From the NCBI GenBank assembly GCA_900635465.1, contig LR134135.1:1178001-1242000 (forward strand): 64,000 nt of DNA, in the 5' to 3' direction. The notes under the pieces were generated by a model, which did no database searches, was not told where the DNA came from, and saw nothing but the letters and a program-made list of their open reading frames with translations. Positions 29,170 through 59,717 of this stretch are shown here, piece by piece; position 1 is the stretch's first letter, and each line of letters opens with the position of its first letter. Position numbers and translations under genes: made by a program. This DNA is from Lelliottia amnigena. GTDB lineage: Bacteria > Pseudomonadota > Gammaproteobacteria > Enterobacterales > Enterobacteriaceae.

Positions 29170-29173
29170 ATTA

Positions 29174-37625: not shown

Positions 37626-37660
37626 TTCCTGATGTATATGTTACAAATCACTACCAATTA

Positions 37661-37836: not shown

Positions 37837-39235
37837 ATGCGTACGTTTCAGTGGCAAACGTAGTGCGCTGGCGCTGGCTATTGCCGGTGTGACAGCAATG
37901 TCTGGCTTTATCGCTTCTCCGCAGGCTCAGGCAGCAGGCTTTATCGATGATTCCACGCTCACGGGCGGTATTTACTATTGGCAACGTGAACGTGACCGTA
38001 AAGACGTCACCGAAGACAAATACAAAACCAACCTGTCCCATTCTACCTGGAACGCCAATCTTGATTTCCAGTCAGGTTACGCTGCGGACATGTTCGGGCT
38101 GGATATTGCGGCGTTCACTGCCATTGAAATGGCCGAAAATGGCGACAGCGCCCACCCGAACGAAATCGCGTTCTCCTCCAGTAACAAAGCCTACAAAGAA
38201 GACTGGTCGGGTGATAAAAGCGGAATCAGCCTCTACAAAGCGGCCGCTAAATTCAAATACGGTCCGGTTTGGGCACGCGGTGGCTATATTCAGCCAACCG
38301 GTCAGACGCTGTTAGCCCCACACTGGAGCTTTATGCCAGGGACGTATCAGGGCGCTGAAGCCGGGGCAAACTTTGACTATGGCGATGCGGGCGCGTTGAG
38401 TTTCTCCTATATGTGGACCAACGAATATAAAGCGCCATGGCACCTTGAGATGGACAAGTTCTATCAGAATGACAAGAAAACCAAAGTCGAGTATCTCCAC
38501 TCGTTAGGGGCGAAATATGACTTTAAAAACGATTTAGTGCTGGAAGCGGCGTTTGGTCAGGCAGAAGGATACGTGGATCAGTACTTCGCCAAAGCCAGCT
38601 ATAAATTCGATATCGTTGGCGGCCCGCTGTCGACCAGTTATCAGTTCTACGGTACGCGTGACAAAGTCAGCGATGGCGGTGTGAACGATCTGTATGACGG
38701 CACGGCATGGCTTCAGGCGCTGACCTTTGGCTACAAAATCGGGCAGGTTGATTTACGCCTGGAAGGGACATACGTGAAGGCCGAAGGTCAGCAGGGCTAC
38801 TTCCTGCAGCGTATGACGCCGACCTACGCATCTTCAAATGGTCGCCTGGATATCTGGTGGGATAACCGTTCGGATTTCAACGCCGATGGCGAGAAAGCCG
38901 TATTCTTCGGTGCCATGTATGACCTGAAAAACTGGAATCTGCCGGGCTGGGCAGTTGGTGCATCTTACGCGTATGCATGGGACGCAAAACCTGCTGATAT
39001 GGCGACGCCGGACGCTTACTACGATCCGAACTATCGCCTGAAAGAGTCCTCATACAGCCTCGATGCCATCTACACGCTTCAGGACGGTCGCGCGAAGGGC
39101 ACGATGTTTAAACTGCACTTCACTCAATACGACAACCATTCCGACATTCCAAGCTACTCGGGCGGTTACGGCAACATCTTCCAGGACGAGCGTGACGTGA
39201 AATTCATGGTCATCGCACCCTTCACCATTTTCTGA
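37837..39235 (+). CDS. chiP: Chitoporin ChiP (YbfM), with one-base frameshift in the signal peptide
   Basis: An outer-membrane beta-barrel porin of the OprD family for chitooligosaccharide uptake. The ATG at 37837 follows the GAGGA/ChiX site and opens MRTF as in E. coli, but a TTT at 37846-37848, where TT is expected, throws the frame to a TAG after eight codons. Dropping one T gives [17 protein letters not shown] and joins the long frame (open from 37889), for about 465 residues with signal cleavage near [10 protein letters not shown]. The rest is intact, ending in the aromatic barrel terminus APFTIF. It is probably a consensus error rather than a dead gene. Confidence 0.9.
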
Positions 39236-39286
39236 TGAACGCGCCGGCGGGATGATTCCCCCCATCCCGCCGGAATGGAGACTGAT

Positions 39287-39617
39287 ATGCTGAAAAATGT
39301 GTTATCGTCGCGATGCTTGCATCGGGACTGGTCGCTTGCGCACAACCGCAGGCACCAAAAGAAGACTCTCGACTGAAAGAGGCCTACAGCGCCTGTATTA
39401 ACACCGCCGAAGGATCGCCAGAAAAAATTGAAGCCTGCCAGAGCGTGCTGAATGTGCTGAAAAAGAGAAAGCGCACGAGCAGTTTGCGACGCAGGAAAAT
39501 GTGCGGGTGCTGGATTACCAGGCCTGTATCCAGGCGCGTCAAACCGGCAACGATCAGGAAGTGGCAAAGCGTTGTGACAAGATCTGGCAGGAGATTCGCA
39601 GCAATAACAGCAAGTAA
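39287..39617 (+). pseudogene. chiQ: Chitosugar-induced lipoprotein ChiQ (YbfN), two one-base frameshifts
   Basis: A small outer-membrane lipoprotein co-transcribed with chiP; its role is unknown. The ATG at 39287 leads into A5 (39292-39296) where A6 is needed to read MLKKCVIVAMLASGLVACAQ, a good lipoprotein signal with lipobox LVAC. A second A5 (at about 39462-39466, in LNVLKK) also needs one more A to continue KEKAHEQFATQENVRVLDYQ to the conserved end WQEIRSNNSK and the TAA at 39615. With both A residues restored the protein is about 110 residues, the family length. The absence of other lesions suggests sequencing error. Confidence 0.8.
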
Positions 39618-39631
39618 TCCTCTTTTGCCAC

Positions 39632-39688
39632 GCCCGGCTGTGCGCCATCCTGATGTGAGTTGGATGGCGCACAACCGGGTTTTTTATT
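39632..39688 (+). terminator. Intrinsic terminator after chiPQ
   Basis: A very long stem: TGTGCGCCATCC pairs with GGATGGCGCACA, extended by CCCGG/CCGGG, followed by TTTTTT. Confidence 0.9.
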
Positions 39689-39698
39689 TATAGCAGGC

Positions 39699-39725
39699 AA
39701 AAAAAAGCCAACCGTCAGGTTGGCT
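39699..39725 (-). terminator. Intrinsic terminator after fur
   Basis: On the minus strand AGCCAACC and GGTTGGCT arms around TGAC, followed by a T-tract of seven to eight bases, 18 bases past the fur stop. Confidence 0.9.
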
Positions 39726-39742
39726 CAGTGTATGAAAAACGA

Positions 39743-40189
39743 TTATTTCGTGTCGTGCGCGTGATCGTTTTCGCGGCAATCGCCTTCAGCACAGTGACCG
39801 TAGAGGTACAGGCTGTGGTTGGTCAGACGGATACCATGACGAGTGGCAATCTCACGCTGACGAGATTCGATAGATTCATCGCTAAATTCAATCACCTTGC
39901 CGCAATCCAGGCAGATGAGGTGATCGTGGTGATGCTGTTGTGTCAGTTCGAAAACGGATTTACCGCCTTCAAAATTATGACGGGTGACAATCCCGGCGTC
40001 ATCAAATTGGTTCAGAACGCGATAAACGGTCGCCAGGCCAATCTCTTCGCCCATGTCGATCAGACGTTTATACAAGTCTTCCGCACTGACATGGTGATTG
40101 TCCGGCCCTTGCAGTACTTCCAGAATTTTTAAACGAGGAAGCGTAACTTTCAGGCCAGCCTTCTTTAATGCGGTATTGTTGTCAGTCAT
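39743..40189 (-). CDS. fur: Ferric uptake regulator Fur
   Basis: The Fe2+-dependent global repressor of iron uptake. It has 148 residues, the E. coli length. A winged helix lies at 1-82 (HVSAEDLYKRLIDMGEEIGLATVYRVLNQ, here described by position 33-61). The metal-binding QQHHHDHLICLDCGKV segment is near 85-100, with the structural-zinc cysteines in CLDCG. The His-rich tail ends DHAHDTK. Its start codon lies inside the leader ORF uof, whose translation is needed for fur translation in E. coli and is the target of RyhB. Confidence 0.97.
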   Translation of the reverse strand: MTDNNTALKKAGLKVTLPRLKILEVLQGPDNHHVSAEDLYKRLIDMGEEIGLATVYRVLNQFDDAGIVTRHNFEGGKSVFELTQQHHHDHLICLDCGKVIEFSDESIESRQREIATRHGIRLTNHSLYLYGHCAEGDCRENDHAHDTK

Positions 40190-40268
40190 GCGGAATCTGT
40201 CCTGTTGCTAAACGATTCACTTCTAAAGAAGAAGTGACAGAAAATGCACTTGGGATAATGCGTTTCAT
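40182..40268 (-). CDS. uof: Fur leader peptide Uof
   Basis: A 28-codon ORF, MKRIIPSAFSVTSS then LEVNRLATGQIPHD, overlapping the fur start (the CAT GAC TGA end of uof contains the fur ATG). E. coli has the same ORF at this place with a very similar sequence. There, RyhB pairs near the uof start and lowers fur translation through coupling. It is too short for most gene callers. Confidence 0.85.
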   Translation of the reverse strand: MKRIIPSAFSVTSSLEVNRLATGQIPHD

Positions 40269-40480
40269 TATAGAACTGCCATGCCTAAATGAAAACTGCA
40301 AGTCTCAAGCAAAGTATGCTTATAAAAACGTGGTATCGCCAACAAAGTTGAGCGAAGGCATCCACTTTAACCTGGGATATTGTACAGGTATGAAAGCAAA
40401 AGTTAAAAATTTGTAGCAATTATTTTAATTGGAATTACCTATCAATGCGGCGCAACAGTTTTGCAGCGCCGCACGATCAA

Positions 40481-41011
40481 TCAGGCATTCAGGATATCGT
40501 CGAGGTGAAGTTCTTCGCGGATCTGCTTAACCCATTTGTCTACGCGTTCTGCGGTGAGCTCTGGTTGACGGTCTTCGTCAATCGCCAGGCCCACAAAATG
40601 ATCGTCATCCGCAAGGCCTTTAGACGCTTCAAAGTGATAACCCGCCGTTGGCCAATGACCGACAATCGCCGCGCCGCGCGGTTCGATGATGTCGCGAATG
40701 GTGCCCAGCGCATCACAGAAATACTCTGCGTAATCTTCCTGGTCACCGCAACCGAACAGCGCGACCAGCTTACCGTTAAAGTCGACTTCTTCCAGCGTTG
40801 GGAAGAAATCGTCCCAGTCACACTGTGCTTCGCCGTAGTACCAGGTTGGAATGCCCAGCAGCAGAATATCGTAACCTTCGAGATCTTCTTTGCTGCTCTT
40901 CGCAATGTCATGGACGTCGGCAACGTCTTTACCTAGCTGTTTTTGAATGTTTTTTGCGATGTTTTCGGTATTACCGGTATCGCTGCCGAAGAAAATGCCG
41001 ATGATTGCCAT
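40481..41011 (-). CDS. fldA: Flavodoxin 1 FldA
   Basis: A low-potential FMN electron carrier, essential in E. coli, serving IspG/IspH, biotin synthase and methionine synthase reactivation. It has 176 residues from the ATG at 41009-41011 ([17 protein letters not shown]); the upstream in-frame extension is unconserved. The FMN phosphate loop is SDTGNT at 10-15, with aromatic stacking residues in [16 protein letters not shown] (about 55-70) and [11 protein letters not shown] (about 94-104). It precedes uof-fur in the same orientation with a 212-base gap. Confidence 0.97.
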
Positions 41012-41168
41012 GAGTAAAATAACCTCTTGAAACTTAATGGTATGGTGGCACAAATTGTCCACGGATGAGGGCAATCATAGCAGAACAGAGAAGTCAGCGG
41101 AAACAGCTATCACGCGGGACTGCACTCTGTGCTACATGAAAGTGGGGTAAGGGCGATTTTTCAGACTT

Positions 41169-41456
41169 TTACTGTGAATGGCGCAATGCCTGCAGTTGCA
41201 GCATAAGCATCTCTTCGATCAGCTCGCTGCGGCTGATTTCACGGGCCTCAGCCAGTTCGCTTAGGGCGTCGACTGCGTCCGCATTGAGTTTTAACTCGAC
41301 GCGTTTAAGCCCACGACTTTTGTCGCGTTTAAGCTGGTTTCGCTTATTGATGCGCAACTGTTCATCGCGCGAAAGCGGATTGGTTTTAGGTCGTCCCGGT
41401 CGACGTTCAGTCGCGAACAGATCTAATGTCGTACGGTCCGTTTGTTCTTTGGCCAT
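41169..41456 (-). CDS. ybfE: LexA-regulated protein YbfE
   Basis: A 95-residue basic protein of unknown function, close to E. coli YbfE (97). The sequence RRPGRPKTNPLSRDEQLR is AT-hook-like. It is followed by a predicted ribbon-helix-helix region (VELKLNADAVDALSELAEA, then SRSELIEEML), suggesting DNA binding. In E. coli it is SOS-induced. The LexA site there resembles the weak TGATTAAAATGTCAGCG at about 41573-41590 on the minus strand, but I see no consensus LexA box. Confidence 0.88.
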   Translation of the reverse strand: MAKEQTDRTTLDLFATERRPGRPKTNPLSRDEQLRINKRNQLKRDKSRGLKRVELKLNADAVDALSELAEAREISRSELIEEMLMLQLQALRHSQ

Positions 41457-41584
41457 GATTCAGAGACTTCGGGGAAAACGAGCGGCCCTGCTATTGCCGG
41501 GGCGATGAGCGCGACATCATACATTACTGATATCAGCACGCCAACGACTGGAGGCCAACAGGCGTCCAGTCGCTGACATTTTAA

Positions 41585-42358
41585 TCAAATCGCGTTCTCA
41601 GAGAGATAACGGCGGATGGCGCGCAGCACCGCGTCCGGTTTTTCGGCGTGAACCCAGTGGCCTGCACCGGCAATCACATGCGCACGCGCCTGCGGGAATT
41701 GCGCCAGCAGCGTATCGCGATAGGCTTCTGTGACATACGGTGAATTGCCGCCGCGAATAAAGAGCGTAGGGGCCTGCCAGGCTGGAATTGGCTGCCAGCC
41801 AACAATGTTATCGTATTGATCCCACAGAACCGGGACGTTAAACCGCCACGCGCCCTCGACGAACGACTTCAGCAGAAACTGCACCACGCCTTCTTCATCT
41901 AAATGCTCGCGCATAATCGCCGCAGCCTGCTGACGGGTTGCAACGCCCGCCTCAGTGACGGCGTTGATCGCCGCAAAAATTTCGTCGTGTCGACGCACAT
42001 CGTAATCCACAGGTGCTACATCAATCACCACCAGCTGGTTGATGCGCTCTGGCGCAATCGCCGTCAGGGCCATCACCGCTTTACCGCCCATTGAATGGCC
42101 AATCAGCGTCGCTTTTTCGATGTTATTCGCATCGAGCGTATCCAGTAGATCATGAGCCATCGCCGCATACGTCATCTCTGGATCGCGCGGTGAAACCCCA
42201 TGGTTGCGCATATCGACCTGCAGAATATTGTGATCGGTAACCAGATCGCGCGCGAGCACGCCCAAATTATCGAGGCTGCCAAAAAGCCCGTGAACCAGTA
42301 CGATGGGAGAATTATTGTTCGGCGATTGTGCAGATTGCGCTCGGCTATTCAATTTCAT
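41585..42358 (-). CDS. ybfF: Alpha/beta-hydrolase esterase YbfF
   Basis: A 257-residue cytoplasmic esterase active on short acyl-CoA and pNP esters in E. coli. Motifs: oxyanion HGLFGSLDNLG near 24-34, nucleophile elbow GHSMGG near 88-93, and the catalytic histidine in GAGHWVHAE near 235. It is divergent from seqA. The natural substrate is unknown. Confidence 0.93.
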   Translation of the reverse strand: MKLNSRAQSAQSPNNNSPIVLVHGLFGSLDNLGVLARDLVTDHNILQVDMRNHGVSPRDPEMTYAAMAHDLLDTLDANNIEKATLIGHSMGGKAVMALTAIAPERINQLVVIDVAPVDYDVRRHDEIFAAINAVTEAGVATRQQAAAIMREHLDEEGVVQFLLKSFVEGAWRFNVPVLWDQYDNIVGWQPIPAWQAPTLFIRGGNSPYVTEAYRDTLLAQFPQARAHVIAGAGHWVHAEKPDAVLRAIRRYLSENAI

Positions 42359-42541
42359 GGCAAAGTTCTTTTTTTACGTATGTCAGGTTAGGGTATTATG
42401 TTGACCATTCTGCCGCCCGGCTGCAAGGATCCAGTTTATTCTGACTTTTGCCGCCACCCTGGCTTGACCCTATCCGCGGTTGGGATTAGCCCCTATAATC
42501 CCAACGACTTGTATTCAGATAAGATATTGCACTGGATTAAG

Positions 42542-43084
42542 ATGAAAACAATCGAAGTTGATGATGAGCTCTATGCGTATATTGCCAGCCACACGCGACA
42601 TATTGGCGAGAGTGCGTCCGACATTTTACGTCGCATGCTGAAATTTTCTGCCGCTTCACAGCCTGCAACTCCGGTTTCGAAAGAGGTTCGCGCGTCAAAC
42701 GTCGTGGCGGAAGCTAAAACCGTAGCGCCGGTTAAAGACAAAGTGCGCGCGGTGCGTGAACTGCTGCTCTCCGACGAATACGCAGAGCAAAAGAAAGCGG
42801 TTAACCGTTTTCTGCTGGTGCTGACTACACTTTATTCACTGGATAACAAAGCGTTTGCTGAGGCGACCGAGTCGCTTCACGGCCGTACGCGCGTGTACTT
42901 CGCGGCGGATGAGCAGACGCTGATTCAAAACGGTAACCAAACCAAACCAAAACAGGTTCCGGGTACCCCTTATTGGGTCATCACCAATACCAATACCGGA
43001 CGCAAATGCAGCATGGTCGAACACATCATGCAGTCAATGCAATTCCCGGCGGAATTGATTGAAAAGGTTTGCGGTACAATTTAA
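42542..43084 (+). CDS. seqA: Replication initiation negative regulator SeqA
   Basis: Binds hemimethylated GATC sites and sequesters oriC after initiation. It has 180 residues from the ATG at 42542 (MKTIEVDDELYAYIASHT), the E. coli start; the frame upstream is open but unconserved. The N-terminal oligomerisation domain is at 1-50. The C-terminal DNA-binding domain (about 65-180) carries NGNQTKPKQVPGTPYWVITN (the hemimethyl-GATC contact region). It lies 24 bases before pgm, as in E. coli. Confidence 0.96.
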   Translation: MKTIEVDDELYAYIASHTRHIGESASDILRRMLKFSAASQPATPVSKEVRASNVVAEAKTVAPVKDKVRAVRELLLSDEYAEQKKAVNRFLLVLTTLYSLDNKAFAEATESLHGRTRVYFAADEQTLIQNGNQTKPKQVPGTPYWVITNTNTGRKCSMVEHIMQSMQFPAELIEKVCGTI

Positions 43085-43108
43085 CCCTTGCATAAGAAGG
43101 ACCAGGCA

Positions 43109-44749
43109 ATGGCAAATCACGAACGCGCGGGTCAGCCTGCGCAACAAAGCGATTTGATTAACGTCGCTCAGCTTACCGCTCAGTACTATGTATTGAAGCC
43201 GGAAGTGGGCAACGCAGAACACGCAGTGAAGTTTGGTACGTCTGGCCACCGCGGCGGCGCGGCGCGCCACAGCTTTAACGAACCGCATATTCTGGCCATT
43301 GCTCAGGCCATCGCTGAAGAACGCGCTAAAAATGGTATTACCGGTCCGTGCTTCGTCGGTAAAGATACTCATGCGCTGTCCGAACCGGCCTTCATCTCCG
43401 TACTGGAAGTGCTGGCAGCGAATGGTGTGGATGTCATCATCCAGGAAGACAACGGCTATACGCCAACGCCTGCGGTCTCGAACGCTATTCTGGTGCACAA
43501 CAAAAAAGGCGGCGCGCAGGCGGACGGTATCGTTATCACGCCATCGCACAACCCACCGGATGATGGCGGTATCAAATACAACCCACCTAACGGCGGCCCG
43601 GCTGATACCAACGTCACGAAAGTGGTGGAAGACCGTGCGAACGCGCTGCTGGCGGATGGTCTGAAAGGTGTTAAACGTATTTCTCTGGATGCCGCGATGG
43701 CTTCTGGTCACGTGAAAGAGATCGATCTGGTTCAGCCGTTTATCGAAGGGCTGGCGGATATCGTGGATATCGCAGCGATTCAGAAAGCCGGTTTAAAACT
43801 GGGCGTGGATCCCCTTGGCGGCTCCGGTATTGAATACTGGAAACGCATCGCGGAGTTCTACAAGCTGGATCTGACCATTGTGAACGATCAGGTCGATCAG
43901 ACGTTCCGCTTTATGCATCTGGATAAAGACGGCGCAATCCGTATGGACTGCTCGTCAGAGTGCGCGATGGCCGGCCTGCTGGCGCTGCGCGACAAATTCG
44001 ATCTGGCGTTTGCCAACGACCCGGATTATGACCGTCACGGTATCGTCACCCCTGCGGGCCTGATGAATCCAAACCACTATCTGGCGGTGGCGATTAACTA
44101 TCTGTTCCAGCATCGCCCTCAGTGGGGCAAAGAGGTAGCGGTAGGTAAAACGCTGGTGTCATCTGCGATGATTGACCGCGTGGTGAACGATCTGGGCCGA
44201 CGGCTTGTGGAAGTGCCGGTAGGTTTCAAATGGTTCGTTGACGGTCTGCATGACGGCAGCTTCGGTTTTGGCGGCGAAGAGAGTGCGGGCGCTTCCTTCC
44301 TGCGTTTCGACGGCACACCGTGGTCGACCGATAAAGACGGGATCATCATGTGCCTGCTGGCGGCGGAAATCACGGCCGTCACCGGTAAAAATCCGCAGGA
44401 ACATTACAATGAGCTGGCTGCGCGATTTGGTGCGCCGAGCTACAACCGTATTCAGGCGAGTGCAACCTCGGCTCAGAAAGCCGCGTTGTCTAAGCTCTCT
44501 CCAGAGATGGTGAGCGCGAGCACGCTGGCGGGTGACCCGATCACTGCACGTTTGACGGCGGCGCCGGGTAACGGTGCGTCCATCGGCGGTCTGAAAGTGA
44601 TGACTGAAAACGGCTGGTTCGCAGCGCGTCCGTCCGGTACGGAAGATGCATACAAAATCTATTGCGAAAGCTTCCTCGGCGACGAACACCGTCAGCTGAT
44701 TGAGAAAGAAGCGGTAGAGATTGTCAGCGAAGTGCTGAAAAACGCGTAA
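43109..44749 (+). CDS. pgm: Phosphoglucomutase Pgm (alpha-D-glucose phosphate-specific)
   Basis: Interconverts glucose-1-P and glucose-6-P, linking glycogen, trehalose and UDP-glucose pathways. It has 546 residues from the ATG at 43109, the E. coli length. The phosphoserine loop is TPSHNPP near residue 146, the Mg2+ loop DPDYDRHG near 304, the sugar-binding loop GEESAGASF near 390 and the phosphate-binding [10 protein letters not shown] near 512. Co-oriented with seqA and probably co-transcribed. Confidence 0.96.
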
Positions 44750-44810
44750 ATGTGTTTGAGCGGGTGGGACTGAAGCTCTCACCTCAACCTTCTTTCACGG
44801 AAGAGGGAAA

Positions 44811-44838
44811 ACAACGGCAACCGCAGGGTTGCCGTTTT
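44811..44838. terminator. Bidirectional terminator between pgm and potE
   Basis: ACGGCAACC and GGTTGCCGT arms around GCA, with TTT on one side and AAA on the other, lie between the convergent genes. Confidence 0.7.
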
Positions 44839-44847
44839 ACGTTTACC

Positions 44848-46161
44848 TCAGCTGTGCTTATTTTTCAGTTCAAAACGCGGTGACACCAGACCGTACAGCG
44901 TCCAGCCCATAAACGTCACCATCGCGCCATACAGCATCGCTTCCTGGCCGGAAGAGTAGAGCGCATAGAAGCTGTAAATCGCCCCGACCAGCGCCACAAA
45001 ATTGGCCACTTTCGCTTTGCCTGGTTCAACATTTGCCATTTTCTGAATGATCACCAGCGCTGCCATCGACAAGATATACGGAATGATATTCGTCACGACG
45101 GCCAGATTAACCAGAACGTTGAATTGAGTGCTCAGGGACGGACTAATGGTCATCAGCGACAAACCGCTCTGGAAAATGACAATCGCCAGCATCCCCTGAA
45201 TCGGCGCTTCTGACTTGCTCACACGCGAGAAGATTTTTGGGAAATAGCCGGAATCCGCAGAAGATTTAAACACCTGCGCAATCGTGAACTGCCAGCCGAG
45301 CAGTGAACCGCAGCAGGACATCACCATCAGCCCCATGATCACTTTCCCGACTTCCGGCGTAAACATCTGCGCAAAAGCCAGACCAAACGGCGCGGTAGAG
45401 TTTGCCAGATCCATATTCGGCACAATCCCGGCGATCACGTTGGTCGAAACGATGTAAATCACTGCAGCACCCAGCGTGCCGCCCAGCACCGCTATCGGCA
45501 CGTTGCGCTCTGGGTTTTCCACTACTTCGGCGTTGGCACACGCTGACTCCAGTCCAAGAAATGCCCACAGCGTCATCGCAATCGACGACCCAACCGCGGT
45601 AAAGAACGGTACGTGATGCGGGTTCCAGGAGTTGGCGTACAGCGTCGGGCTAAACCAGAACCAGCCGATAATGCACAGTCCGACGACCGGGATGATCACT
45701 CCCCAGACCGTCACGCTGCTGATTTGCCCGGTAATGCGCGCGCCGCCAAAGTTGGCGATAGTACAAATCCACAGCACGCCAATGGTCGCGAGGCCGATCT
45801 GCACTGGGGTGAGTGCTGCGCCAAACAGCTCCGTCCCGTAGCCAACCGCCGAGATCGCGATCGCCACATTGGCGATCAGCAGCGACACGCCGTAGGTGTA
45901 GTTCGCCATAAAGTTGCCCGACTTACCGAAGGCGTATTCGGCGTAACCGCCCATCCCGCCGGACTTACGGCTAAACATTCCGCATTTAGCAAATGCCCAC
46001 GCCAGCGCCATCGACCCGACGGCTGTGACCAGCCAGGAGATAATCGAGATCGTCCCCACTTCCGCGAGTTTGGTGGGCAGCATGATGATGCCTGAGCCCA
46101 TCATATTCACCATTGTCAGAATAGTGAGCTGCACAACGCCCATCTTATTGGATTTACTCAT
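44848..46161 (-). CDS. potE: Putrescine-ornithine antiporter PotE
   Basis: An inner-membrane APC-family transporter with 12 predicted helices that exchanges intracellular putrescine for ornithine, completing the proton-consuming SpeF cycle. It has 437 residues (E. coli 439), opening NMMGSGIIMLPTKLAEVG, the substrate-binding GSGI signature. It overlaps the speF stop by four bases (ATGA), so expression is tied to speF and to the SpeFL leader. Confidence 0.96.
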   Translation of the reverse strand: MSKSNKMGVVQLTILTMVNMMGSGIIMLPTKLAEVGTISIISWLVTAVGSMALAWAFAKCGMFSRKSGGMGGYAEYAFGKSGNFMANYTYGVSLLIANVAIAISAVGYGTELFGAALTPVQIGLATIGVLWICTIANFGGARITGQISSVTVWGVIIPVVGLCIIGWFWFSPTLYANSWNPHHVPFFTAVGSSIAMTLWAFLGLESACANAEVVENPERNVPIAVLGGTLGAAVIYIVSTNVIAGIVPNMDLANSTAPFGLAFAQMFTPEVGKVIMGLMVMSCCGSLLGWQFTIAQVFKSSADSGYFPKIFSRVSKSEAPIQGMLAIVIFQSGLSLMTISPSLSTQFNVLVNLAVVTNIIPYILSMAALVIIQKMANVEPGKAKVANFVALVGAIYSFYALYSSGQEAMLYGAMVTFMGWTLYGLVSPRFELKNKHS

Positions 46162-48356: not shown

Positions 48357-48610
48357 ATTCATCTCTTTATTTTTGGCAATATTCACCCATCGGTTTCTTT
48401 TAAATAAGAAATCGATATTTCCCGGAAAAAAACAAAGTGTGGCCGCTGATAAAAAATCAGTAAATTTGCTTTTTTGATGAGTTAAATCCCAATCGTCCGG
48501 TGACGAAGCACTCAGGATTTAAAAGGATAAGCGTGCAGGTTCACAGACAATGGCCTGTAAAACAAGGGGTTCAGAATAACCTGTGTACGAACACGCCAGC
48601 AGACGGGGAT

Positions 48611-48715: not shown

Positions 48716-48992
48716 GCTTATTTTCCTTTCAGTAATTGAAAGCATGGTCATTCTATCCAGGAAAGGGCGGTAAACCGTGAGTATGATCACCATTAACCGA
48801 TCAAATCAGAAATAAATATTCGTTTTGAGTGAATAGTGCAGATCAAAATTCTGCATTGTAATGATGGTGTTAATCTTGTGTTGAATGGATGTTCTGATTT
48901 ATTTTAAATAAATCATCTATAAACTTTTTGATATTGGGTAAATATAAAAAGAGAGATTTTAGGTTGGCGCTTTAAATAAAGTGAATACTTAT

Positions 48993-49670
48993 TCAAAGCA
49001 TAAAGCGATAACCGATACCGGTTTCTGTTAATAAATGGCGAGGGCGTGCAGGGTCAACTTCGAGTTTCTGACGAAGATGGCCCATATATATGCGTAAATA
49101 ATGACTATGCTCGACGGCATTCGGGCCCCATACCTGATTGAGTAGCTGGCGCTGTGTCAGTACCTTGCCGTGGTTATTCAGCAGAATCGCCAGCAGGCGA
49201 AATTCAATCGGGGTAAGGTGAATCTCTTGCGCGCCGCGAAGAATGCGCCGCGCGGCGAGATCAACCTGAATGTCTGAGAAGGTGTAGACCGGTTCCGCGG
49301 GCGTTGTGGTGCTATGACGACGTAACGCCACGCGCAGTCGCGCCTGCAGTTCGCCGATACCAAAGGGTTTGCTGAGATAATCATCGGCACCGGCATCCAG
49401 CGCGGCAATTTTATCGGTCTCTTCCGCGCGGGCAGAAAGCACAATAATCGGCATCTGGCTCCACTGGCGAACCTCGCGGATAAAATCGATGCCGTCGCCG
49501 TCTGGCAAACCTAAATCGAGGATCACCAGATCGGGTTTGCGCGTCGCGGCTTCAATCAGGCCACGCTGTAACGTTCCGGCGTCAAACACGCGCAAGCCGT
49601 CCCCCTCCAGCGCGGCGCGCAGGAAACGGCTAATCGCATGTTCGTCTTCAACAATCAGAACGTTAATCAC
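48993..49670 (-). CDS. kdpE: Two-component response regulator KdpE
   Basis: An OmpR-family activator of kdpFABC. It has 225 residues with a receiver domain (1-115) holding acidic pocket EDE at 8-10, phosphoacceptor Asp52 in LVILDLGLPDGDG and Lys near 101 in YLSKPFG, and a C-terminal winged helix (about 130-225). The GTG start overlaps the kdpD stop by four bases. No terminator is evident in the AT-rich 48.7-49.0 kb interval downstream. Confidence 0.96.
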   Translation of the reverse strand: MINVLIVEDEHAISRFLRAALEGDGLRVFDAGTLQRGLIEAATRKPDLVILDLGLPDGDGIDFIREVRQWSQMPIIVLSARAEETDKIAALDAGADDYLSKPFGIGELQARLRVALRRHSTTTPAEPVYTFSDIQVDLAARRILRGAQEIHLTPIEFRLLAILLNNHGKVLTQRQLLNQVWGPNAVEHSHYLRIYMGHLRQKLEVDPARPRHLLTETGIGYRFML

Positions 49671-52354
49671 AAATCCTCTGGTAATTCATCAAGTTCCGGC
49701 GGGGCTTCTAGCGGAAGTGTAACACAAAAACAGGCCCCGCCTTCCGGACGGTTGTGCGCGTCGATGGTCCCACCGTGAACCTCGACGATGGCCTGGCATA
49801 TCGCCAGCCCAAGCCCGACACCCGGAATGGCAGACTCTTTATTTCCCCGGGCAAATTTTTCAAAAATAGCCGATTCTTGTCCAACGGGAATGCCGGGGCC
49901 GTCGTCCCAGATCTCAAGACGTAATGCCTGATTTGCCACGCCCGCATTCAGCCCAATCTCTGCTTTTGAACCGGCGTATTTCGCCGCGTTTTCCAGCAGA
50001 TTAATCAGCACACGCTCAAACAGCGGCCCGTCAACGTGAATCAGCGCCAGCGGCTCCGGCATGTTTAAAGAAATGTGTCGCCCGCCGAGACCCGGTTCCA
50101 GCATTTTCAGGGCGCTGCCCACCACCTCTTCCAGCGTCAGCCACTCTTTTTTGAGGTTAAATCCGCCGGACTGAATGCGCGCCATATCCAGCAGATTATT
50201 CACCAGCCGCGTCGTGTTGAGCACATGCTGGCGTATTTCACTGGCCTGCGGTGCGTGCGGGGAATTCTCTGCCGCCAGATCGAGCGTTAAAATTTCCGCC
50301 TGGCCAAACAGGACGGTCAGCGGCGTGCGCAGATCGTGAGAGAGCGCCGCCAGCAAGGAGTTGCGGATGCTCTCACGCTCGCTGGCCATTCGGGCCTGCT
50401 CTTCGCTTGCCGTCAGCGCCAGTCTTTCGAGAGCGCTGGCGACCAGCAACGTGAAGGTTTCCAGTAGACGCTGCTGTTCCGGGATCATCAGCTGTCGCAG
50501 ATGTGTCGGCTCCACAATCACCAGCCCCAGCGTCTTGTTGGCGCTACGCAGCGGCAAAATGAGGTAGGGCACGCCGGGTAAAGTGTCCGTACCCGCGCCT
50601 GCGGGTAAACCTTTATCAAAACTCCAGCGGGCAATCGCGTCATCCCACGGCGTCATACCGCTGGACGAGGTCAACGGGCGCAGTTTCCCGTGCTCATCGG
50701 GCAGCAAAATCAGGCTGCTGGCGTGGAACGTCGAGCGAATAAACTGCTCGCTGGTCTGAACGATATCGCGCGGCGTGCGGCCCACTGCCAGCGATTTTGA
50801 CATCTCATAAAGATGACGCGTGCGTTGCTCGCGATAGCGGGCGATACGTGCCTGATAGCGCACACCTGCGGTGAGATTCCCGACGATAAGGCCGACGGTA
50901 AGCATCACTGCGAACGTCAGAATGTACTGCACGTCCGACACCGCCAGCGTTCCGCGCGGGGCGATAAAAAACAGATCAAAGCTGGCGACGTTAATCACCG
51001 TGGCGAGCACTGACGGCCAGCGACCGTAAAGCAGGGCGACAATCACCACGCCCAGCAGATAAATCATCACCAGATTGGCCGCGTCAAAGGCGAAAAGCCA
51101 CTGGCTGGCCACGAACGTGATCAGCGCGCACAGAACCGTCGCGACCAGACAGCCACGCAGCTGAATACGCCATTTCTCGCCGAAAGGGCGCACATCTGCT
51201 GTTCGGTTTGGCAGGGGGGCGGGTTTGTCGTCAAGGGCGACAATCACCAAATCTAAATCGGGCGCGCGTTTTGCCAGTTTATCGGCGAACGACTCACGGC
51301 TAAACCAGCGGCGATGATGGCGACGGCCAATCACAATTTTGCCCAGATTGTGCTCGCGGGCGTAGCGGAGAATGGCTTTGTCTTCTGCGGGATCGGACAG
51401 CGTGGCGGTTTCTGCGCCCAATTCTTGTGCCAGGCGTAAGGCGCTCAAAATGGCGCGACGTTGATGTTCAGGCAGCGCATGCAGATGCGGCGTTTCGACA
51501 TAAACCGCATGCCAGACGCTGCCAAATTTTGCCGCCAGCCGCGCGGCGGTGCGCACCAGCTTTTCGTTGCCGCTCCCGTGGCCGATGCACAGTAAAATCG
51601 CGTCGCGGGTGTGCCAGACGCGATCCTGCCCCTGTCGGTCACGCCAGGCACGCATCTGATCGTCCACCCGATCGGCGGTGCGTCTGAGCGCCAGTTCACG
51701 CAGGGCGATCAAATTCCCTTTGCGGAAGAAATGTTCGATGGCCCGTTCGGCCTGACCGGTAATATAGACTTTGCCCTCGTGCAGGCGCTGGCGCAGGTCG
51801 TCCGGCGGCAAATCGACCAGCACCACCTCGTCGGCGGAATCAAAAAAGGGATCGGGCACGGTTTCGCGCACCTGAATTCCTGTCACGCCACTGACCACAT
51901 CGTTCAGGCTTTCCAGATGCTGCACGTTAACGGTGGTAAAGACGTCGATACCCGCTTCCAGCAGCTCCTCGACATCCTGCCAGCGCTTTGGATGACGCGA
52001 GCCTGGCGCGTTGCTGTGCGCCAGTTCGTCCATCAGGATCAGCGCCGGACGGCGGGCGAGGGCGGCATCGAGATCAAATTCCGTCACCAGACGACCGCGA
52101 TGGCTGGTCCGCCGGGCGGGCAGCGTGGCTAATCCTTCCAGCAGCGCCGCCGTCTCTTTACGTCCATGCGTTTCCACCACGCCTACCACAATGTCTAAAC
52201 CTTGCGCCCGCAGCCGCTGCGCTTCCGCCAGCATGGCGTACGTTTTCCCGACGCCAGCGCAGGCGCCAAAGAACACTTTCAGCTTGCCGCGATGCGGGGC
52301 GGCTGTCTGTTCCAGCAGTCGGTCAGGGTCCGGGCGCACAGGCTCGTCGGTCAT
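49667..52354 (-). CDS. kdpD: Sensor histidine kinase KdpD
   Basis: The K+-limitation sensor. It has 895 residues. The N-terminal KdpD domain has Walker A GACAGVGKTYAMLAEAQ (about 31-47). A USP-like domain (about 250-370) is followed by four close membrane helices (about 400-495), a GAF-like segment, the HisKA box LSHDLRTPLTVL with the phosphorylated histidine near 674, and an HATPase domain with DDGPGIP and GVGLGLAICQ. It directly abuts kdpC and overlaps kdpE, so all six kdp genes can be one transcript. Confidence 0.96.
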   Translation of the reverse strand: MTDEPVRPDPDRLLEQTAAPHRGKLKVFFGACAGVGKTYAMLAEAQRLRAQGLDIVVGVVETHGRKETAALLEGLATLPARRTSHRGRLVTEFDLDAALARRPALILMDELAHSNAPGSRHPKRWQDVEELLEAGIDVFTTVNVQHLESLNDVVSGVTGIQVRETVPDPFFDSADEVVLVDLPPDDLRQRLHEGKVYITGQAERAIEHFFRKGNLIALRELALRRTADRVDDQMRAWRDRQGQDRVWHTRDAILLCIGHGSGNEKLVRTAARLAAKFGSVWHAVYVETPHLHALPEHQRRAILSALRLAQELGAETATLSDPAEDKAILRYAREHNLGKIVIGRRHHRRWFSRESFADKLAKRAPDLDLVIVALDDKPAPLPNRTADVRPFGEKWRIQLRGCLVATVLCALITFVASQWLFAFDAANLVMIYLLGVVIVALLYGRWPSVLATVINVASFDLFFIAPRGTLAVSDVQYILTFAVMLTVGLIVGNLTAGVRYQARIARYREQRTRHLYEMSKSLAVGRTPRDIVQTSEQFIRSTFHASSLILLPDEHGKLRPLTSSSGMTPWDDAIARWSFDKGLPAGAGTDTLPGVPYLILPLRSANKTLGLVIVEPTHLRQLMIPEQQRLLETFTLLVASALERLALTASEEQARMASERESIRNSLLAALSHDLRTPLTVLFGQAEILTLDLAAENSPHAPQASEIRQHVLNTTRLVNNLLDMARIQSGGFNLKKEWLTLEEVVGSALKMLEPGLGGRHISLNMPEPLALIHVDGPLFERVLINLLENAAKYAGSKAEIGLNAGVANQALRLEIWDDGPGIPVGQESAIFEKFARGNKESAIPGVGLGLAICQAIVEVHGGTIDAHNRPEGGACFCVTLPLEAPPELDELPEDL

Positions 52355-52930
52355 TTAGTTTTTCCTTAGCGCGTCCAGCGCCAGATTCAGCTCAACAATA
52401 TTCACTACCGGCATACCGATAAAATTGACCAGCGGTTTTTGCGTATGTTCCTCAACGACCTGACGCACCTGTTCCGTGGTCAACTGGCGGGCAGCCGCCA
52501 CGCGCGGGATCTGCCATGCGACCGATTCGGGCGTCAGGCTGTAATCCAGCCCGCTGGCAGAGGCCGTGACCAGCTCAACGGGCACATCACGGCTGGCCTG
52601 CGGGTTGGCGGCGCGAAGTGTGGCAACGCGTTCGCCGATCGCTTTATCCAGCTCGGGATTGCTCCCCGCCAGATTACTCCCGCCAGACGCCATCGGATTA
52701 TACGGGCTTTCCGCGGTGGCGGAAGGACGCCCCTGAAAGTAGCCCGCGTCGGTAAAATTCTGCCCTATCAGGCGCGAGCCGCGATTTTCACCGTTCTGGA
52801 TAATCAGCGAACCGTTGGCCTGATCGGTAAACCACCATTGGCCGAGTGCCGTTGTGAGCAGCGGATAAAGCCCGCCGGTCACCAGCGTTAACAGAATAAA
52901 CAGCAGTATAGCGGGGCGTAACATCGTCAT
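52355..52930 (-). CDS. kdpC: K+-transporting ATPase subunit KdpC
   Basis: The single-pass membrane subunit that helps KdpB bind ATP. It has 191 residues with one N-terminal helix (about 6-28) and a periplasmic/soluble portion with [20 protein letters not shown] near 70-90 and [12 protein letters not shown]. Located 12 bases after kdpB. An ATG two codons downstream is an alternative start. Confidence 0.95.
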
Positions 52931-52942
52931 TTGATTTACCTT

Positions 52943-54991
52943 TTAAACCAGCCCGAACACGGTCAGCAGCATGTCGATAATTTTGATACCGATAAACGGC
53001 ACCACCAGTCCACCCAGACCATAAATCCACAGGTTGCGACGCAGCATAGCGGCCGCCGTCAGCGGTTTATAGCTCACGCCTTTAAGCGCCAGCGGGATCA
53101 GGAAGACAATAATCAGCGCGTTAAAAATCACGGCGCTGAGAATGGCCGACGCCGGAGAGTGCAGATGCATCACGTTCAGGGCGTTGAGCTGGGGATAGGT
53201 CGCCGCAAACGCCGCCGGAATAATGGCGAAATACTTCGCCACGTCGTTGGCGATACTGAACGTGGTCAGCGATCCGCGCGTCATTAGCATCTGTTTGCCG
53301 ATGTGCACCACTTCAATCAGCTTGGTCGGGTTAGAGTCGAGATCGACCATATTGCCCGCCTCTTTCGCCGCCTGAGTGCCCGAGTTCATCGCCACCGCGA
53401 CGTCCGCCTGTGCCAGTGCCGGGGCGTCGTTGGTGCCGTCGCCGGTCATTGCCACCAGGCGTCCTTCGGCCTGGTACTGACGAATCAACGCCAGTTTGGC
53501 TTCCGGCGTGGCTTCAGACAGAAAATCATCCACGCCCGCTTCGGCGGCAATCGCGGCGGCGGTTAACCGGTTATCGCCGGTGATCATCACCGTTTTAATC
53601 CCCATCTTACGCAGCTGGGCAAAGCGTTCTTTAATGCCACCTTTCACGATATCTTTCAGGGCAATGACGCCGAGCACGGTTGCACCTTCGGCGACCACCA
53701 GCGGCGTTGCGCCCTGACGCGCCACGTTCTCCACCAGACGATCGACTTCCGGTGGGAAGTGGCCGTTGTTGGCTTCAATGTGGCGGCGGATTGCGTCAAC
53801 GGAGCCTTTGCGAATCATGCGATCCTGGATGTTAATCCCGCTCATACGCGTTTGCGCGGTGAATGGCACAAAGGTGGCCTGCAGGCTTTGCACATCCCGC
53901 TGGCGCAGGTTAAAGCGCTGTTTTGCGAGGATAACAATGCTGCGGCCTTCCGGCGTTTCGTCGGCCAGCGATGAGAGCTGCGCGGCGTCGGCCAGCGTTT
54001 TTTCATCCACGCCGGGCGCGGGCAGGAACTCAGATGCCTGGCGGTTGCCGAGGGTAATGGTCCCGGTTTTATCGAGCAGCAACACATCCACGTCGCCCGC
54101 CGCTTCTACGGCGCGACCGCTGGTGGCGATGACATTTGCGCCGAGCATCCGACTCATCCCCGCCACGCCAATCGCCGACAGCAATCCGCCGATGGTGGTT
54201 GGGATCAGGCAGACCAGCAGCGCGACCAGTACCGTGACGCTGACCGCCGTACCGCCGTAGGCGGAGAACGGCCACAGGGTGGCGGTTGCCAGCAGGAAAA
54301 CAATCGTCAGGGCCACCAGTAAAATGGTCAGCGCGATTTCGTTTGGCGTTTTACGGCGCTGCGCGCCTTCGACCATCGCGATCATGCGGTCGAGAAAGGT
54401 TTCGCCTGGGTTGACGCTGCACTGGATCACCAGCCAGTCGGAGAGGATCCGCGTCCCGCCGGTGACGGAAGCGAAATCGCCGCCAGACTCACGAATCACC
54501 GGTGCAGATTCCCCGGTGATCGCGCTCTCATCGACCGATGCGCCGCCTTCGATGACTTCCCCGTCGCACGGGATGATATCGCCCGCTTCGACCAGCACGA
54601 CGTCGCCTTTGCGCAGCTCGTCAGCCGGGACGTGATCCATCTGCGCGCCATATTTTGGCTCGCGCAGTTTGCGGGCAAATGCCGTCTTATTGATGCCTTT
54701 CAGGCTGTTGGCCTGCGCCTTACTGCGGCCTTCAGCCAGCGCTTCGGCTACGTTGGCGAAAAGCACCGTAAACCACAGCCAAACGCTAATCGCGCCGGTA
54801 AAGCCCGCATCGCCCGCCAGATGCCCGGTTGCCATTGCAACAGCCAGCGCGGTGGTGACCACGCTGCCAATCCAGACAATAAACATCACCGGGTTGTGCC
54901 ATTGCACGCGCGGGCTGAGTTTTTTGACCGCATCCATCAACGCCTGGCGAACCAGCGCGGGTTCTAAGAGGGCCAGTTGTTTACGACTCAT
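52943..54991 (-). CDS. kdpB: K+-transporting P-type ATPase subunit KdpB
   Basis: The catalytic P-type ATPase subunit. It has 682 residues, identical in length to E. coli. Actuator loop TGES is near 159-162 (Ser162 is the inhibitory phosphorylation site in E. coli). The phosphorylated aspartate is Asp307 in [13 protein letters not shown], with the nucleotide-binding region containing KGSVDAIRR and the hinge [20 protein letters not shown] near 515-534. It lies 19 bases after the restored kdpA stop. Confidence 0.97.
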
Positions 54992-55010
54992 GACTTATGT
55001 CTCCGCTCAA

Positions 55011-56689
55011 TTAGCGTAAAGAAAGATGTTCCGCGACCGGGCCTAACGCGAGGGCGGGGATAAAGGTCAATGCACCCACCAGCAGCACGGTGCCAATCAG
55101 CAGGCCGACAAACAGCGCCCCGTGGGTGGGCAGCGTTCCGCTGGAGGTGGGCTGAATGTTTTGCTGACAAGCGTCCCGGCAATCGCCATCACCGGGATGA
55201 TTACCCCAAAGCGACCGACGAACATGCAGAACGCCAGCAGGCAGTTCCAGAACGGAGAGTTAGCGCTTAATCCGGCGAAGGCGCTGCCGTTGTTGTTAGC
55301 GGCGGATGAGACGGCGTACAGCACTTCGCTAAAGCCATGAATGCCAGGGTTGAAAATGCCGCTGCGTCCGGCGTCGGTCATCAGCGCCAGCGCCGTACCC
55401 ATCAGCACCAGTGCAGGGGTCACCAGAATCGCCAGCGCGGTCAGTTTCATCTCCCTCACGTCGATTTTTTTACCCAGGTATTCCGGCGTGCGGCCAATCA
55501 TCAGCCCGGCGATAAACACCGCCAGCAGGACAAACAGCAGCATGCCGTACAGACCGGATCCGACCCCGCCAAAGACCACTTCACCAATCTGCATCAGCCA
55601 CAGCGGGATCATCCCGCCAAGCGCCGTGAAGGAGTCATGCATCGCATTCACCGCGCCGCAGGAGGCCGCCGTGGTGACCACTGCATACAGACTGCTGGCG
55701 AGAATGCCGAAACGGCTCTCTTTACCTTCCATATTGATGTTGCTGTCGGCACCGATCTGCATAAAGTGCGCGTTGCCGTGCCATTCCGCCCACATCACCA
55801 GCGCGGCGCAGACCACGAAGATAATTGACATCGCCCAGAGCAACGTGCGGCCCTGACGGCGGTCGTTCACCACATCGCCAAAGGCAAAGCAGAGCGCGGA
55901 GGGGATCAGGAAGATCGCCAGCATCTGCACGAAGTTAGTCAGCGCAGTGGGGTTTTCGAACGGGTGCGAGGAGTTGGCATTGAAGAATCCGCCGCCGTTC
56001 GTTCCGAGCATTTTGATGGCTTCCTGTGAGGCCACTGGCCCCATCGGCAGCATCTGTTTTACCCCCTCAAGCGAGGTATAAGACGAATACGGCAGCAGGT
56101 TTTGCAACGTGCCTTGCTGGATAAAGAACAGAGCGATAAGCAGAGCAATCGGCAGCAGCACCCACAGCGTGATCCGCGTGAGATCGACCCAGGCATTACC
56201 CAGCGTATTCATTTTTTGCCGCGCAAAAGCGCGCGTCAGCGCGAAGATCACCGCGATGCCGCTGGCTGCAGACAGGAAGTTTTGTACGGTTAATCCTGCC
56301 ATCTGGCTGAAATAGCTCAGCGTGGTTTCACCTGCATACGATTGCCAGTTGGTATTGGTGACGAAACTGACGGCCGTATTGAGCGCCAGATGCCAGCTTA
56401 ACCCCGGCAACTGCTGCGGGTTGAGCGGCAAAATGCCCTGCAACATCAGCATCGCGAAGAGGACAAACAGGCCGCACACATTCAGCAGCAGAATAGCGAG
56501 CAGATATTGCCGCCAGTTCATCTCCTGATTTTGGATGCCGAGTACGCGCCATAATCCGTTTTCCACGCCGCCAACCAGAGGCAGCGGAACGCCATTTATC
56601 ATCCGCGCCAGTACGGTTCCCAGCGGTCGTGCCAGCAGGAACAGCACCAGTAAAAAGCTGGCGATAAGTAAAAATCCTTGAGCGGCCAT
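55011..56689 (-). CDS. kdpA: K+-transporting ATPase subunit KdpA, with one-base frameshift near the C-terminus
   Basis: The channel-like K+-binding subunit of the SKT superfamily, with four selectivity-filter repeats. The open frame from 56689 is broken after LVSK at a run of four T (+ strand 55159-55162; A4 on the coding strand). Beyond that it reads unrelated residues and stops at 55097, 530 residues in. Adding one base (A5) gives [19 protein letters not shown], the last membrane helix and the end [10 protein letters not shown] at 55011, about 559 residues as expected. The filter segments, such as [11 protein letters not shown], are intact. The break is probably a consensus error. Confidence 0.92.
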
Positions 56690-56778
56690 CAGAATGCCTC
56701 CGCATTAAACAAGGCGTAGACCAGATACCCTAATAACAGAAAAACCAACACGATGCCGGCAATCAGACCTGCACTCAC
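56689..56778 (-). CDS. kdpF: K+-transporting ATPase small subunit KdpF
   Basis: A 29-residue single-helix peptide, [19 protein letters not shown] followed by [10 protein letters not shown], nearly the same as E. coli KdpF, that stabilises the Kdp complex. GTG start at 56776-56778 with GGAGG seven bases upstream. The stop overlaps the kdpA start by one base (TGATG). It is the first gene of the kdp operon. Confidence 0.93.
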
Positions 56779-57086
56779 AATTCACCTCCGGGTGACATTT
56801 GTCTTTGTGCAAAAGGTAGGATTTATGGCGCAAAGATTTCGCAAAAATCGGCGGGGGAGGTGTAAAAAAAGTATAAAAACGATAAAGCCCCAATTTAACT
56901 ATTGGTAAGTATCTCGTTAACTTTTTCGTAACTTAATTACGGGAGAAGTGTAAATATTCACTAAATGAATGAAAAGAAGTGGTCGGATGAGTAGTAAAAT
57001 TACAAACAAAACGGTACTATTTTAGCCAGATAACCACTTTTGAATTTTCCGGATAATGTTTCCGGCCAACTATAGGGGAGAAAATA
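56779..57086. other. Divergent kdpF-ybfA intergenic region
   Basis: 308 AT-rich bases with the KdpE site and kdp promoter toward the left and the ybfA promoter toward the right. No ORF is supported. Confidence 0.7.
56853..56880 (-). promoter_or_regulatory. KdpE operator upstream of kdpF
   Basis: On the minus strand TTTTTATACTTTTTTTACAC followed by CTCCCCC matches the T-rich E. coli KdpE site. It is followed by the conserved GATTTTTGCGAAATCTTTGC stretch in the same spacing to the operon start. Confidence 0.8.
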
Positions 57087-57293
57087 ATGGACCTTTACAA
57101 AGAGTATCCTGCACATGTTGTCTTTTTACGTCGCACCTTCGCTGTAGTGGCGGGTGTTCTGGCGTTACCGGTAATGCTTTTCTGGAAAGACCGTGCCCGT
57201 TTTTACAGCTATCTGCACCGCGTCTGGGCGAAAACCAGCGAGAAACCGGTATGGATGGATCAGGCCGAAAAAGCGACCTGCGACTTCTATTAA
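57087..57293 (+). CDS. ybfA: DUF2517 family protein YbfA
   Basis: A 68-residue protein of unknown function, the same length as E. coli YbfA. A hydrophobic segment (about 18-33, [14 protein letters not shown]) suggests one membrane helix, followed by a conserved basic/aromatic tail ([14 protein letters not shown] and [11 protein letters not shown]). GGGGAG lies ten bases upstream. Divergent from kdpF; in E. coli it has been reported as stress-responsive, but no role is established. Confidence 0.92.
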
Positions 57294-57321
57294 AATAAAG
57301 ACGACACACAGCAATGTCGTA

Positions 57322-57350
57322 ACCGCCACAGAGATGTGGCGGTTTTTTTA
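57322..57350 (+). terminator. Intrinsic terminator after ybfA
   Basis: AACCGCCAC and GTGGCGGTT arms around AGAGAT, followed by T6. Confidence 0.9.
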
Positions 57351-57550
57351 TGCCGCGATAAAGGTTTACCCCTTGAGAGTGTCAGGAGTTATCCGCAGTT
57401 AACCGGCATTAACGGTGTTGTACTGCTTGCTCCAGTAACATAACTTAAACATTATAGCGTCAGGTATTCCGACGCTGTTTCGGACGACGCGATGTTAGCG
57501 TGCGGCCGGAAACGCTACGCTTAGGTTATGGACAATTATTCAGGAGTGTT

Positions 57551-58962
57551 ATGACCACGCATCTGGTCTGGTTTCGCGCGGATCTGCGCCTTCATGACAA
57601 TATCGCCCTCGCGGCTGCCTGCCGCAGCCAAAACACGCGGGTGCTGGCCGTGTTTATCGCCACGCCCGATCAGTGGCGGCAGCACGATATGGCCCCGCGA
57701 CAGGCGTCATATCTGCGCGCGCATCTTAAGGGGTTGCAGCAGGGCCTGGCGGAGAGAGGCATTCCCCTCATCTATGAAGAGGTGAGTGATTTTGCGGCGC
57801 AAAGCGCAAAAGTGCAGCAGCTCTGCGAGCAGCACGGGGTCACCCATCTTTTTTACAACTATCAATACGAATTCAACGAGCAGCAGCGCGACCGACAGCT
57901 CGAAAAAACGCTCGACGGCGTGGTCTGTCAGGGCTTTGACGACAGCGTGATGTTGCCGCCCGGCAGCGTCATGACCGGGAATCACGAGATGTACAAAGTG
58001 TTTACCCCGTTCAAGAATGCGTACGTCAAGCGCCTGAAAGAGGGGCTGCCGGAATGCGTGGCCGCGCCCGCAGCCAGAGAACAAAAGCTGCCGCCACCCG
58101 CTGAAATTGACTTCAACTACCCGCAGCAGGATTTTGATGCTGAACGGTTTCCTGCCAGTGAAAAGGCCGCCATCGCGCAGCTGCGCCATTTCTGTCAGCA
58201 CGGCGCGGGTGAGTACGAGGCGCGACGCGATTTCCCTTCCATCGACGGCACCAGCCGGTTATCTGCCTGTTTAGCGCTGGGCGTGCTCTCGCCGCGTCAG
58301 TGTTTGCACCGACTGCTGGCGGAGCAGCCCAGAGCGCTGGACGGCGGTGAGGGTGCGGTGTGGCTTAACGAGCTTATCTGGCGAGAATTTTATCGCCATC
58401 TGATGACCTATCATCCTGATTTATGTAAACACCGGCCCTTTATTCGCTGGACGGATAATGTGCAGTGGCAGCACGACGAGGTGCTGCTGCAGGCCTGGCA
58501 GGACGGGAAAACGGGCTATCCGATTGTCGATGCGGCGATGCGCCAGCTCAACGAAACGGGGTGGATGCATAACCGCCTGCGAATGATCGTGGCGAGTTTT
58601 TGGTGAAAGACTTGCTTATCGACTGGCGTGCCGGAGAGCGATATTTTATGGCACAGCTGATCGACGGCGATTTGGCCGCCAATAATGGCGGCTGGCAATG
58701 GGCGGCCTCAACCGGAACGGACGCCGCGCCCTATTTTCGTATTTTTAATCCGACCACGCAGGGGCAACGGTTTGACGACAAAGGCGAGTTTATCCGTCAG
58801 TGGCTGCCATCACTTCGTGATGTGCCAATTAAATCCGTTCATGAACCCTGGGTGTGGGCAGATAAAGCGGGCGTGAAGCTCGATTATCCGCGCCCGATTG
58901 TCGATCATAAACAGGCGCGCGTCGCCACACTGGCGGCCTATGAAGCCGCCCGCAAAGTGTAA
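57551..58962 (+). pseudogene. phrB: Deoxyribodipyrimidine photolyase PhrB, with one-base frameshift
   Basis: Repairs cyclobutane pyrimidine dimers with blue light, using FADH- and an MTHF antenna. The ATG at 57551 opens MTTHLVWFRADLRLHDN. The frame is intact through [11 protein letters not shown] and then stops at 58606, because the run at 58597-58601 is T5 where T6 is needed. Continuing in the next frame gives [17 protein letters not shown] and the rest to TAA at 58962, including [20 protein letters not shown] with FAD-binding residues. Restored length is 470 (E. coli 472). In K-12 ybgA precedes and dtpD follows it; both are absent here. Confidence 0.9.
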
Positions 58963-58972
58963 GAGAGTCATG

Positions 58973-59717
58973 ATGAAAAAACACCGAACTTGAACAACTG
59001 ATCAACGAAAAACTGAACAGCGCCAGCTTTAGCGACTATGGCCCGAACGGCCTGCAGGTGGAAGGGCGCGACACGGTGCAAAAGATTGTCACGGGCGTCA
59101 CGGCAAGCCAGGCGCTGCTCGATGAAGCGGTGCGTCTGCAAGCCGATGCAGTGATCGTACATCACGGTTATTTCTGGAAAAACGAAGCGCCCGTGATTCG
59201 CGGCATGAAGCGCAATCGCCTGAAAACACTGCTGGCAAACGACATCAACCTGTATGGCTGGCATTTACCGCTGGATGCGCACCCGGAGCTGGGCAATAAC
59301 GTGCAGCTGGCCGCGCTGCTCGGCATCACCGTGATGGGCGAAATTGAACAGTTAGTGCCGTGGGGTGAGTTATCGATGCCGGTCCCAGGTCTGGAGCTGG
59401 CCTCCTGGATTGAGGCGCGTCTGGGGCGTCGTCCGCTGTGGAGCGGTGATACCGGGCCCGATTTGGTGAAACGCGTCGCCTGGTGTACGGGCGGTGGTCA
59501 GGGCTTTATCGACAACGCTGCGCGCTTTGGCGTTGACGCGTTTATTACCGGTGAAGTGTCTGAACAGACGATCCATTCCGCGCGTGAACAGGGGCTGCAT
59601 TTTTATGCCGCCGGGCATCACGCCACTGAACGCGGCGGCATTCGCGCCCTGAGCGAGTGGTTGACGGAAAATACCGATCTGGATGTGACCTTTATTGATA
59701 TTCCTAATCCTGCCTGA
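58973..59717 (+). CDS. ybgI: NIF3-family metal-binding protein YbgI, with one-base frameshift at the start
   Basis: A toroidal dinuclear-metal protein of the NIF3/DUF34 family; the reaction is unproven, with GTP cyclohydrolase-like and stress roles suggested. The ATG at 58973 is followed by A6 where A5 is needed, so the ATG frame stops after six codons. Removing one A gives MKNTELEQLINEKLN and joins the long frame, for 247 residues, the E. coli length. Metal ligands are in IVHHGYFWKNE (about 60-70), DAHPELGNN and GHHATERGGI near 215-224. It precedes pxpB by 14 bases. Confidence 0.92.

Follow-up and report, generated by a model that had tools for sequence, protein, structure and literature searches.

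The deposited genome of Lelliottia amnigena studied here (G000, a single contig of 4,471,442 bases) carries numerous one-base insertions and deletions that are almost certainly uncorrected consensus errors of the assembly and not mutations of the bacterium, and from the sequence comparisons we infer a cause in sequencing or assembly. Differences of this kind are spread over the sampled blocks of the chromosome, occur in single-copy housekeeping genes as well as in rRNA genes, and are absent from the relatives compared. The window (the whole stretch of 64,000 nucleotides that was analysed, G000:C1:1178001-1242000) contains five genes that appear broken by them; in the living cell, all five are most likely intact. 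The artefact is an ordinary one; the preliminary description of the window guessed its kind rightly, and its extent is wider than was supposed there.

Genomes and Comparisons

The closest genome in the comparison set, G004, shows 94% identity to positions 52943-59000 of the window. A region of 144 kb that includes the window was aligned to G004, and the six sites reported previously were checked on this alignment. The frames of the window genes were obtained by tblastn of G004 proteins on the window, and G004 open reading frames (ORFs) were named by NCBIfam models with an E value of 1e-10 or better. The polarity of frame differences over the 144 kb was assigned with three references (G004, G008 and G013), support by at least two of the three being required. 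Additionally, seven blocks totalling 504 kb were sampled from G000, of which 462.9 kb (about 463 kb) was aligned to G004; block G of this sample (3.00 Mb) matched poorly, with only 12,230 of its 40,000 bases aligned. Named relatives were found through kdpC and provided 31 loci, chiefly from Enterobacter and Lelliottia together with some allied genera.

Reading Frames in the Window

All six one-base insertions or deletions of the preliminary description are present with respect to G004 and the genes that carry them are frame-shifted (Table 1), although the phrB site is not a clean homopolymer change (T5 in G000 versus TTTTCT in G004). Read from the ATG at 37837, chiP reaches a stop after 8 codons, while residues 4-465 of the G004 ChiP protein, which scores above the cut-off of the NCBIfam model NF047822 (ChiP), match positions 37847-39232 in a single frame at 99%, the start codon lying in another frame. 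The chiQ ORF of G004 matches the window in two frames by tblastn (residues 8-66 and 63-114); no NCBIfam match at 1e-10 was found for this G004 ORF, and the gene name is that of the preliminary description. The kdpA ORF comprises 530 aa in the window compared to 559 aa in G004, and the G004 proteins KdpA (TIGR00680), PhrB (NF007955) and YbgI (NF008064, the model match starting at ORF residue 26), all three above the cut-offs of their NCBIfam models, are each matched partly in one window frame and partly in a second.

Table 1. Coordinates (window positions) of the frame-shifted genes and of the stretch free of curated events
Feature	Position	Strand	Observation
chiP (chitoporin)	37837..39235	+	one-base difference at 37846; by comparison with G004, frame lost near codon 4
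chiQ reading frame	39275..39617	+	two one-base differences, at 39293 and 39460
kdpA (K+-transporting ATPase subunit A)	55011..56689	-	frame change at about 55159
phrB (deoxyribodipyrimidine photolyase)	57551..58962	+	frame change at 58601
ybgI (type 2 GTP cyclohydrolase I / Nif3-like)	58973..59717	+	frame change among the first codons, at 58976
Stretch without curated coding frame difference	1..37800	.	0 events in 33,716 CDS nt

Comparison with independent genomes, made for kdpA, phrB, ybgI and chiQ, came out in favor of intact genes. A single frame was found for kdpA in 31 of the 31 named loci, for phrB in 30 (the remaining locus being partial at a contig end) and for ybgI in 29, the gene being absent from one locus and, in another (L046), lying in two frames only upstream of the start of the family model. 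The chiQ gene was covered in only two of the 31 loci and occupied a single frame in both. KdpA proteins are 558 or 559 aa long in 117 of the best 120 listed matches (8,000 scored); one KdpA cluster (P0001), 97% identical and located on a contig of 4,413,049 bases, hints at a second assembly from this species or a very close one. Both pieces of PhrB match one database protein of 470 aa (P0121), at 99.4% and 100%. Taken together, the frames in the named loci, the KdpA lengths and the PhrB match indicate that intact, near-identical copies are present in sequence collections.

Housekeeping and Ribosomal RNA Genes

A probe set of 70 Escherichia coli proteins was taken from the dcw, secA-mutT, tufB, rpoBC, S10-spc-alpha, mutS and mutL regions; all but murB and birA were covered, giving 68 proteins compared in both genomes. 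In G000, seven of the 68 are broken across frames (FtsW, MurG, DdlB, SecA, TufB, RpoC and HflX), SecA being divided into three pieces in three frames, whereas none is truly split in G004, where TufB was flagged only because two full-length copies occupy different frames. The genes secA, rpoC, murG, ftsW and ispD are essential in enterobacteria, and ddlB and hflX are dispensable. The breaks in ddlB, hflX and tufB are therefore weak witnesses, the first two because of this dispensability and the last because a second, full-length tuf copy is also present in G000. Whole-genome searches of 20 genomes placed SecA, MurG and RpoC each in a single open frame in all 11 congeners; the G000 genes are split, and no second full-length copy of any of the three was found in that genome. 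The same searches did not find RpoC in G020, a genome that is 89% complete. SecA is also split in G018, which belongs to another family (G018:C1:4794081-4796793; residues 1-724 and 722-900, with one TAA), perhaps through an assembly error. In the S10-spc-alpha region, the 27 proteins tested are all present at 95% of their length or more, in a single piece and frame, in G000 and G004 alike. MutT of E. coli is matched in G000 over residues 16-126 only and in G004 from residue 1; the G000 gene (G000:C1:708755) appears to be shifted near codon 15 with respect to both G004 and E. coli, probably by consensus error.

The 23S rRNA genes served as a non-coding control, with seven matches in each of the two genomes. 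In the joint alignment, the G000 copies contain 13 singleton indels, distributed over five copies (1, 7, 2, 1 and 2), and no singleton substitution; among the G004 copies, the only singleton is one substitution. Eight of the 13 indels involve G. Since a single copy (L158, G000:C1:4418176-4421088) accounts for seven of them, error density is very uneven among the 23S copies. Two more insertions are not singletons, one being shared by two G000 copies and the other by three, and these could be either systematic miscounts or real copy variants. A sequence in which secA, rpoC, murG and several 23S copies are damaged in this way would hardly describe a living cell, which suggests that the sequence is at fault and not the organism. 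The contrasts with G004, in proteins split between frames as in 23S indels, support the consensus error that the preliminary description favored.

Frame Differences along the Chromosome

In the genome sample, G004 ORFs with a length of 120 aa or more were mapped; of these 378, 48 are shifted in G000 (13%, before curation) through 72 indels, 71 of which are of one base. The NCBIfam scan covered 46 of these ORFs, with a family match for 41; the other two, one of them ftsW, cross the boundary between sequence pieces. Before the rate was calculated, 15 of the 72 events were removed: nine in five ORFs without an NCBIfam match, including the sole event of more than one base, and six that precede the part of the ORF covered by its family model. 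One of these six falls in an ORF that matches a chromosomal class C beta-lactamase model and was not counted as broken. A set-aside ORF of 354 aa is open in G008 too, and its two events may rightly belong to the catalogue. Conversely, the event at G000 position 3424470 was kept, as it precedes the first residue of the best model but lies inside the match of a second one; the count without it is 56. Curation left 57 one-base events (0.146 per kb of CDS, one per 6.8 kb), and other named ORFs affected in the sample include ispD, cysI (two events), cysJ (two events), lipA, purF, efp and thiC.

The preliminary description regarded all of its events as homopolymer changes, which holds loosely for its six sites and only in part genome-wide. 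The curated events, 34 insertions and 23 deletions, lie in runs of at least three identical bases in 37 cases (16% for random bases), in pairs in 13 and in single bases in seven, so that not every one of them is a classical homopolymer miscount.

In the reverse comparison, 43 G000 ORFs are shifted in G004, and 32 of them share all their breakpoints with the 48 ORFs above; the breakpoints of the other 11 are not all common to the catalogue, and these ORFs were left uncurated. Over the 144 kb, with support by at least two of the three references, 20 frame differences were assigned to G000. Nine of them coincide with the nine assigned to G004 and are therefore common to both sister genomes, 11 are found only in G000 (one of these being only a 22-base segment in a start region) and none is found only in G004. 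Differences backed by all three references number four in G000, one in G008 and none in G004 or G013. The possibility that the errors lie in G004 rather than G000 was ruled out by the polarity observed with G008, G013 and the E. coli proteins.

The problem had also been thought to be confined to one stretch of 21 kb. However, similar events occur on either side of the window and elsewhere along the chromosome, and the interval 37.8-59 kb is not special, with three catalogue events versus 2.67 expected (P(>=3) = 0.50); a local effect limited to it was rejected on this count. The chiP event and both chiQ events fall below the size limits of the catalogue; if they are counted, P(>=6) = 0.054, although events of this small size do not enter the expected number. 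The absence of events before 37.8 kb, on the other hand, was correctly noticed: 4.92 curated events would be expected there at the average rate of the sample, and the Poisson probability of an event-free stretch is 0.007. Two raw events in this stretch (23492 and 26284) were set aside as belonging to ORFs without a family match. Several small differences with respect to the relatives also occur at window positions 26200-27000, where the one scanned ORF has no family match and a tRNA cluster may be present.

Overall, the distribution of the events is patchy: in 44 bins of 10 kb each, the index of dispersion is 2.46 (P = 3e-6 by chi-square). This clumping, with which the clean first part of the window and the clean ribosomal-protein genes go together, argues against an evenly distributed random error. 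Such a pattern would follow from read depth that varies along the chromosome or from polishing of some parts only; selection on real mutations would clear some essential regions too, but it would not leave secA, rpoC and murG broken. Two dense patches of frame differences, at G000:C1:667660-670594 (about 667.7-670.6 kb; araC, a DedA-like gene and thiQ) and at G000:C1:738413-739995 (about 738.5-739.3 kb; cueO), are either of low quality or truly decaying.

Alternative Explanations

Real gene decay would mean that chiP, chiQ, kdpA, phrB and ybgI were truly lost by recent frameshifts. The five genes are dispensable in the laboratory, and both the tested ribosomal-protein genes and the first 37.8 kb of the window, which presumably holds essential genes as judged by E. 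coli gene order, are clean, as decay restricted to losable genes would predict. Nevertheless, lesions are not restricted in this manner, since the same type is found in secA (twice), rpoC, murG, ftsW, ispD and the 23S copies, and the 11 events found only in G000 over 144 kb are missing from at least two of the three relatives; decay of the five window genes is accordingly very improbable. It is possible, if unlikely, that a few real frame losses exist beneath the background of error, the araC/DedA-like/thiQ patch or the cueO patch being truly in decay.

A mutator strain, in which loss of mismatch repair raises frameshifts at runs, would agree with the finding that one lineage has too many runs altered in length by one base, and mutT itself is apparently shifted. 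However, the repair genes examined were mutS and mutL, and neither is inactivated, 100% of each E. coli protein being matched in G000 without a change of frame; loss of MutT leads to A:T to C:G transversions and not to frameshifts, and breaks in secA, rpoC or murG would be lethal. With mutS and mutL intact and housekeeping genes broken, a mutator was rejected and seems scarcely credible. The chance that the cell reads through the shifted genes by programmed slippage or frameshifting is smaller still and practically negligible. In its favor, 37 of the curated events lie in runs of at least three bases, but the runs are mostly short, G or C is involved in 32 of the 57 events and 20 affect single bases or pairs, whereas efficient bacterial slippage requires long A or T runs; in addition, it leaves both indels in rRNA and the absence of such events from congeners unexplained. 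The preliminary description likewise ranked the mutator and slippage as the weaker options.

On the reading of consensus error in the assembly, short homopolymer runs were given one base too many or too few, and no accurate read set put the miscounts right. The errors are present chromosome-wide, at about one per 7 kb of CDS in the sample and in a patchy manner, and they affect both essential and dispensable genes as well as those for rRNA. The individual sites are probably errors of this type.

Significance and Comparison with Known Cases

Apparent gene losses in the G000 sequence are not to be trusted. Taken literally, it would describe a bacterium without working secA, rpoC, kdpA, phrB and cysI, and analyses of gene loss, pseudogenes or 23S variation built on this assembly would be misled. 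The frames of housekeeping genes across congeners and singleton indels among rRNA copies provide flags for such assemblies that do not need reads.

In one example of the Kastor report, detected errors amounted to less than 0.05% of a genome with 23.3% pseudogenes, a proportion that became 5.6% once corrected (PMC12007338). The figure for G000 differs from that example, as 13% of the ORFs were shifted before curation, and it was obtained from the assembled sequence alone. Insertions outnumber deletions in G000. As in the long-read-only bacterial assemblies described for Polypolish (PMC8812927), the residual error type is homopolymer length. G000 also resembles in kind the cases that the Kastor report presents, in which many apparent frameshift pseudogenes, mainly due to short indels linked to homopolymers, were recognized by comparison with reference genomes (PMC12007338).
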